This document shows positions 61,509-62,555 of a stretch of 64,000 bases of DNA, piece by piece. Where the stretch lies: positions 1 through 64,000 of the forward strand of contig JABMOW010000025.1 of the NCBI GenBank assembly GCA_013204025.1. The letters are read 5' to 3'. The DNA comes from Fidelibacterota bacterium (lineage in GTDB: Bacteria > Fidelibacterota > Marinisomatia > SCGC-AAA003-L08 > JACNLC01). Position numbers and translations under genes: made by a program. Numbering within the stretch: the first letter of the stretch is position 1; each line of letters begins with the position of its first letter. The notes under the pieces are model-generated. The model was not told the DNA's origin, ran no database searches, and worked only from the letters and a program-made list of their open reading frames with translations.

Positions 61509-62555
61509 TTATTTTACATATATCCGGAATTCTGCAGGGTTATAGACTTTACCAATTACTGCTGCAGCAAGCGATTGTTTTTCCATCAATTCAGTTACCA
61601 ACAAATCGGATTTTTCAGCCGGCACTGAGATAAGTAGTCCACCTGATGTTTGTGCATCGGCTAACATCAATTGTTGGAATGGAAGAATCCGATCCGAAAA
61701 ACTGGTTGAGCGATTAACATGAGTCAAATTGGATTTGGTCCCGCCCGGTACAACATCCTTCTGTGCAAGTTCGAATACACCTTCCAGAAAGGGGCATCTA
61801 TCAAACTCAATTACAGCAGATACATCACTTCCCTCGCACATTTCCAACAAATGTCCCAGAAGTCCAAAGCCAGTAACATCCGTGCATGCACTTACGCCTA
61901 CAGCGGTCATAGCCTCGGCGGCGGATTTATTAAGAAATACCATAAGTTCAGTAACTGAACTTATCATGTTTACATCTGCAAGTTCACGCTTGATTGCGGT
62001 CGAAATAATGCCTGTCCCCAGAGGTTTAGTTAGAATAAGCACGTCTCCGGGTTTGGCAGTATTATTCCGAACCAAATTTTCTTTTTTGGCGATTCCCGTT
62101 ATAACGAGTCCGTATTTCAACTCTTTATCTTTGATGGTATGACCACCAAGAATAGGAATCCCCACTTTTTCGGTTACTGATAATCCTCCGTTCAGAATTT
62201 CTGTCATAACGGAAAGTGGTAGTTGATCTTTTGGAAATCCGGCAATATTCAGTGCGAATAAGGGGGTCGCCCCCATAGCGTAAATATCCGAAAGTGCATT
62301 GACTGCGGCGATCTGTCCATAGACAAATGGATCGTCTACGATAGGGGTGAAAAAGTCAACACTTTGGATCAACAAATTTCCGTCAGGTAGCGGATATATG
62401 GCCGCGTCGTCAAACGATTCATACCCGATTTGCGAATTATCTAATGTTACTGAATTTAAAGCGCTCAAAACTTGAGCTAGGTCATCTGCCCCTAATTTGC
62501 AGGCTCAGCCGGCGCCGGATGACATGCTGGTCAATTTGTATTTCTTGGAAGTCAT
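61509..62555 (-). CDS. selD: Selenide, water dikinase (selenophosphate synthetase), selenocysteine-containing
   Basis: SelD makes selenophosphate, the Se donor for selenocysteine and selenouridine. A conventional reading starts at 62468 and lacks the active-site N-terminus. Extending in frame to the ATG at 62555 gives MTSKKYKLTSMSSGAG-U-ACKLG, with TGA at 62505-62507 as codon 17. This aligns exactly with E. coli HGAGCGCK, whose Cys17 is catalytic and whose Lys20 is conserved (K20 here). Later motifs are intact: DDAAIY, QSVDFFTPIVDDPF, GGHTIKD, TDVTGFGLLGHL, DAQTSGGLL. The length is then 348 residues (E. coli 347). selA, selB and tRNA-Sec are not in the window and must lie elsewhere. Confidence 0.93.
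62463..62507 (-). promoter_or_regulatory. Candidate bacterial SECIS element in selD
   Basis: Downstream of the in-frame TGA the mRNA can form a hairpin with a perfect 6-bp stem GCTCAA/TTGAGC and the loop GTT. The apical loop begins 34 bases after TGA and opens with G, which agrees with the usual bacterial SECIS spacing and loop rule as I recall them. An alternative fold pairs TGAGC with GCTCA and CTGC with GCAG. SelB binding is predicted, not shown. Confidence 0.55.

Follow-up and report, generated by a model that had tools for sequence, protein, structure and literature searches.

A selD gene interrupted by a TGA at its catalytic position, very probably encoding a selenoprotein, in a Neomarinimicrobiota genome

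Near the end of the window (the whole stretch of DNA analysed, 64,000 nucleotides), the minus strand carries a selD gene whose reading frame is open on both sides of a TGA codon at 62507-62505. The features of the locus are as follows.

61509..62555, minus strand: selD, selenide, water dikinase, 348 aa including one probable selenocysteine (U17), stop codon included
62508..62555, minus strand: the N-terminal 16 codons, MTSKKYKLTSMSSGAG, dropped by a standard gene caller
62505..62507, minus strand: in-frame TGA, very probably read as selenocysteine, equivalent to E. coli Cys17 by alignment and the same residue in relatives
62466..62468, minus strand: TTG, the ORF start under table 11, most likely a false start
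62463..62477, minus strand: predicted bacterial SECIS hairpin from fold and covariation, with a 6-bp stem (GCUCAA/UUGAGC) and the loop GUU (62471-62469)

Under table 11 the gene is called as a 319-aa ORF from TTG 62468, and reading through the TGA gives 348 aa from ATG 62555, with the N-terminus MTSKKYKLTSMSSGAGUACKLG... (TGA translated as U). The product matches the SelD equivalog models TIGR00476 (385.4 bits, cut-off 125) and NF002098 (344.6 bits, cut-off 299), each along almost the entire model, and contains the Pfam AIRS and AIRS_C domains. Aligned with E. coli SelD (PDB 3u0o; residues 3-317, 246.6 bits), its N-terminus is gapless, placing U17 on Cys17, C19 on Cys19 and K20 on Lys20, so that both the catalytic Cys/Sec17 and Lys20 are accounted for. 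The original prediction of an in-frame TGA at the catalytic position of selD, with a residue-for-residue match to the E. coli N-terminus and K20 kept, is thereby borne out. Its span of 62463-62555 holds for the N-terminus and the SECIS hairpin, but not for the whole gene, which occupies 61509-62555.

The TGA recurs in selD through most of the phylum. Across 60 genomes (our own and relatives), all 47 long SelD matches hold exactly one TGA, which lies at residue 17 in each of the 30 loci read in detail. Across the phylum (245 genomes), those SelD genes among the matches listed that are free-standing likewise carry one TGA, except in G184, where the match begins past the TGA site, and G215, whose Cys form is truncated where its contig ends. 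The roughly 740-aa frames in which the phylum encodes SelD fusions contain no TGA, and the eight Cys SelD loci of the phylum that were read are all of this fusion type or cut. Readable SelD genes in other genomes number 79 (66 with TGA, 13 with Cys), a split that does not measure prevalence, as the search favours close relatives. Since Cys homologues exist, eight of them within the phylum, the UGA stands where homologues hold Cys, as in a selenoprotein. A normal stop in close relatives, with no homology upstream of it, had been named as evidence that would count against this reading; in the relatives, instead, the TGA persists and the homology extends upstream of it. A tree that leaves out residue 17 places 41 of the 42 Sec sequences from the phylum in one group, beside the Cys sequences of the phylum. 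The remaining one, a Sec-SelD from family f30 (L141, genome G226), has a long branch and falls with Calditrichota, apart from the rest of the phylum, possibly through transfer or a long-branch effect. Three genomes (G118, G138 and G146) each encode two TGA-bearing SelD genes, and in each of two others (G153 and G154) one Sec SelD is accompanied by a Cys SelD whose frame is about 740 aa long.

Downstream of the TGA lies a hairpin whose loop is separated from the UGA by 33 nt; its stem is formed by nucleotides 31-36 and 40-45 (counted from the T of TGA), and it has a GUN triloop in most sequences. Folded in isolation it reaches −6.4 kcal/mol (z −3.2), whereas the 54-nt region folded whole shows no extra stability against shuffles (z +0.59), so that it is the local hairpin alone that is unusually stable. 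By covariation across 41 distinct Sec sequences from this phylum, it ranks first of the 584 possible six-pair hairpins around the codon, column pair 33/43 ranks first of 4,620 pairs, and none of 20,000 permutations reaches the observed pairing, although figures of this kind are raised by shared ancestry and base composition. At pair 36/40, a change in the Gln codon goes with one in the Leu codon (CAA-TTG 9, CAA-CTG 2, CAG-TTG 0, CAG-CTG 21), and both changes are silent (Fisher 2e-6, in a test that ignores relatedness and base composition). At least five of the six pairs form in 31 of the 41 phylum Sec genes versus none of 21 Cys SelD genes; the other 10 Sec genes have fewer than five pairs at this exact site, so their SECIS would have to lie or fold differently. 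Sec genes from Acidobacteria, Verrucomicrobia and Planctomycetes have the same hairpin at the same position. Closer to the UGA, another helix (nt 13-20/24-31) was attractive by eye, showed no covariation (p 0.24) and was dropped, and an Rfam search of the window gave no match. The silent double change, together with the contrast to the Cys genes, makes a SECIS element the simplest reading of the hairpin.

These observations bear on whether the TGA could instead be a true stop, a sequencing error or the mark of a pseudogene, with SelD starting at TTG 62468 and lacking its catalytic residue. The 319-aa table-11 ORF is what such a reading would yield, but that form is without Sec17 and Lys20, in keeping with the original prediction that a start at 62468 loses the active site. 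The TTG, moreover, is the first codon of the hairpin's 3' arm, and on account of that position is most likely a false start. Dozens of independent assemblies share the TGA, and the 16 codons before it differ from those of the nearest relative by seven synonymous and no non-synonymous changes, which argues that they are conserved as protein and, on this sequence comparison, under purifying selection. (Among named genomes, that of Candidatus Neomarinimicrobiota bacterium SI047_bin25 is the closest, with 76% SelD identity.) We therefore consider a real stop or a broken gene exceedingly improbable, and put the probability that the selD TGA is read as selenocysteine, making SelD a selenoprotein, at roughly 0.97.

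From a genomic perspective, the capacity to decode UGA in this way is present in the organism itself, an uncultured marine bacterium represented by a Neomarinimicrobiota (Marinimicrobia/SAR406) MAG of 3.15 Mb, 88% complete. The assembly encodes tRNA-Sec (65.2 bits against an Rfam gathering score of 47; ARAGORN agrees, calling tRNA-SeC with anticodon tca), SelB (350 bits, cut-off 242, including two winged-helix domains of the SelB type) and SelA (540 bits, cut-off 268), all above cut-off, as expected from the original prediction that the organism decodes UGA as selenocysteine. Absence of selB and tRNA-Sec, named beforehand as grounds for rejecting that prediction, was looked for, and both are present. 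The ORFs of selA (L017, 10097-11494) and selB (L017, 11491-13365) overlap by 4 nt and so look like one apparent operon; selD and selC lie on contigs other than this one, and selB had no match in a plasmid search. Taken with the locus, this machinery argues that the organism uses selenocysteine in SelD and probably translates the Sec form.

Further selenoproteins were sought by family searches that read through stops, plus a few stretches, so the following list is incomplete.

L154:1498-1719 (G000 C110), minus strand: SelW-like protein (Rdx, PF10262), 74 aa, motif FCIKUKYEP, CxxU
L157:501-959 (G000 C97), plus strand: BCP-type peroxiredoxin, motif ASTPGUTVEG, TGA at the peroxidatic cysteine
L158:318-1325 (G000 C94), minus strand: TlpA-like thioredoxin domain, APWUPVCAPEL (WUPVC motif)

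The expectation that other selenoproteins lay hidden in this genome was realised three times, each with the TGA at a redox Cys. One TGA is found in all 47 above-cut-off SelW-like matches from our own genome and its relatives, most of which share this TGA-bearing gene. In the peroxiredoxin, the U is aligned to the PGCT-motif Cys of a solved BCP-type structure. By eye, the TlpA-like gene has two dockerin-like repeats after its domain, with no Pfam match. Three molybdopterin oxidoreductase genes of the formate-dehydrogenase type and two AhpD-like genes contain no TGA, which agrees with the remark that Sec-decoding organisms without FdhA have Sec-SelD (PMC1794560). A strict codon-usage scan of the window and the selAB and selC contigs for TGA-interrupted genes returned nothing and missed selD itself; in a relaxed scan, selD was the sole convincing case within the window. 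An in-frame TGA that is read through could also arise if the codon were reassigned genome-wide (e.g. to Trp or Gly), the residue then not being selenocysteine. However, TGA ends 13 of the 42 long frames in the window as an ordinary stop, so the selD recoding is local; all four in-frame TGAs found occupy redox Cys positions, none was seen at conserved Trp or Gly positions among the genes examined, and the genome holds the complete Sec machinery. The chance of such a reassignment is, in our view, practically nil.

Mechanistically, selenocysteine insertion would proceed as follows. The ribosome would start at ATG 62555 and reach the UGA as codon 17, where SelB carrying Sec-tRNA-Sec, bound to the predicted mRNA hairpin (62477-62463), would insert selenocysteine, after which translation would run on to 61509. 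The resulting enzyme, presumably with Sec17 in its catalytic role, would turn selenide and ATP into selenophosphate, which SelA would use for more Sec-tRNA-Sec. SelD would thus both consume the product of the Sec pathway and feed it, and therefore depend on the pathway that it supplies; this dependence is a known positive loop. A variant would have two products: with ample selenium the full-length Sec-SelD, and under scarcity a form that is truncated or starts at the TTG and has a regulatory role. We are not aware of data on such a truncated product and consider the variant very unlikely, although the TTG frame exists and UGA recoding in E. coli is described as selenium-dependent and incomplete in PMC4513850.

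Across the same 60 genomes, SelD and SelA occur together in 41, SelD only in six, SelA only in seven and neither in six. The genomes with SelD but no SelA match above cut-off (6 of 47) are mostly incomplete MAGs. SelA without a SelD match, in most cases together with tRNA-Sec, was seen in G008, G025, G026, G031, G032, G033 and G059, three of which belong to one genus (g6). Genus g22 (0.8-1.0 Mb, 93-98% complete) has no SelD, SelA, SelW-like protein or tRNA-Sec above cut-off, which looks like a coherent loss of the trait. We posit, as a probable scenario, that the Sec trait is ancestral to the main Neomarinimicrobiota class, with a core of Sec-SelD and the SelW-like protein to which the Sec peroxiredoxin and the TlpA-like protein were added; that streamlined genera with small genomes lost the whole trait; and that SAR406 'orphan SelD' entries are artefacts of incomplete single-cell genomes or of a missed UGA. 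Such entries appear in Table 1 of Peng et al. 2016 (PMC5029168), where three SAR406 single cells are given an orphan SelD, that is, SelD without a known use. Our results bear on that listing and suggest, from the genomes covered here, that the SAR406 lineage in fact uses Sec. They also correct how a key gene of selenium metabolism, one that gene callers would shorten, is annotated in a widespread marine phylum whose selenocysteine use bears on the marine selenium cycle.

Among the papers searched, none combines Neomarinimicrobiota with selenoprotein, and those with Marinimicrobia and selenocysteine were, by their titles and abstracts, apparently unrelated to the subject; phylum-wide documentation of Sec-SelD in Neomarinimicrobiota is, to that extent, modestly new. 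The recoding itself is mechanistically ordinary and common among many bacteria. As the original prediction stated, Sec-SelD is known in other lineages; few bacterial selenoproteins are more widespread (PMC9312934, PMC4561486, PMC1794560), and PMC4561486 reports Sec in 19% of the SelD genes of one reference set, the position never varying. Compared with E. coli SelD (PDB 3u0o), the present protein shares Lys20 and differs in having Sec where E. coli has Cys17. The ~740-aa Cys fusions from other families of the phylum have a homologous SelD domain and branch as sister to the Sec forms, but carry Cys at position 17 and lack the hairpin (1-2 of 6 pairs); their length fits the NADH-dehydrogenase-like SelD fusion of PMC4561486, to which they may correspond. 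The closest parallel is with the Sec-SelD (SPS-Sec) of Pasteurellales, Clostridia and Deltaproteobacteria (PMC4561486, PMC1794560), which has Sec at the same position, that of E. coli Cys17, a SECIS directly downstream, and SelA, SelB and tRNA-Sec alongside; the differences lie in lineage and local sequence only (here GAGUACK, with Cys19 kept), and none is mechanistic.
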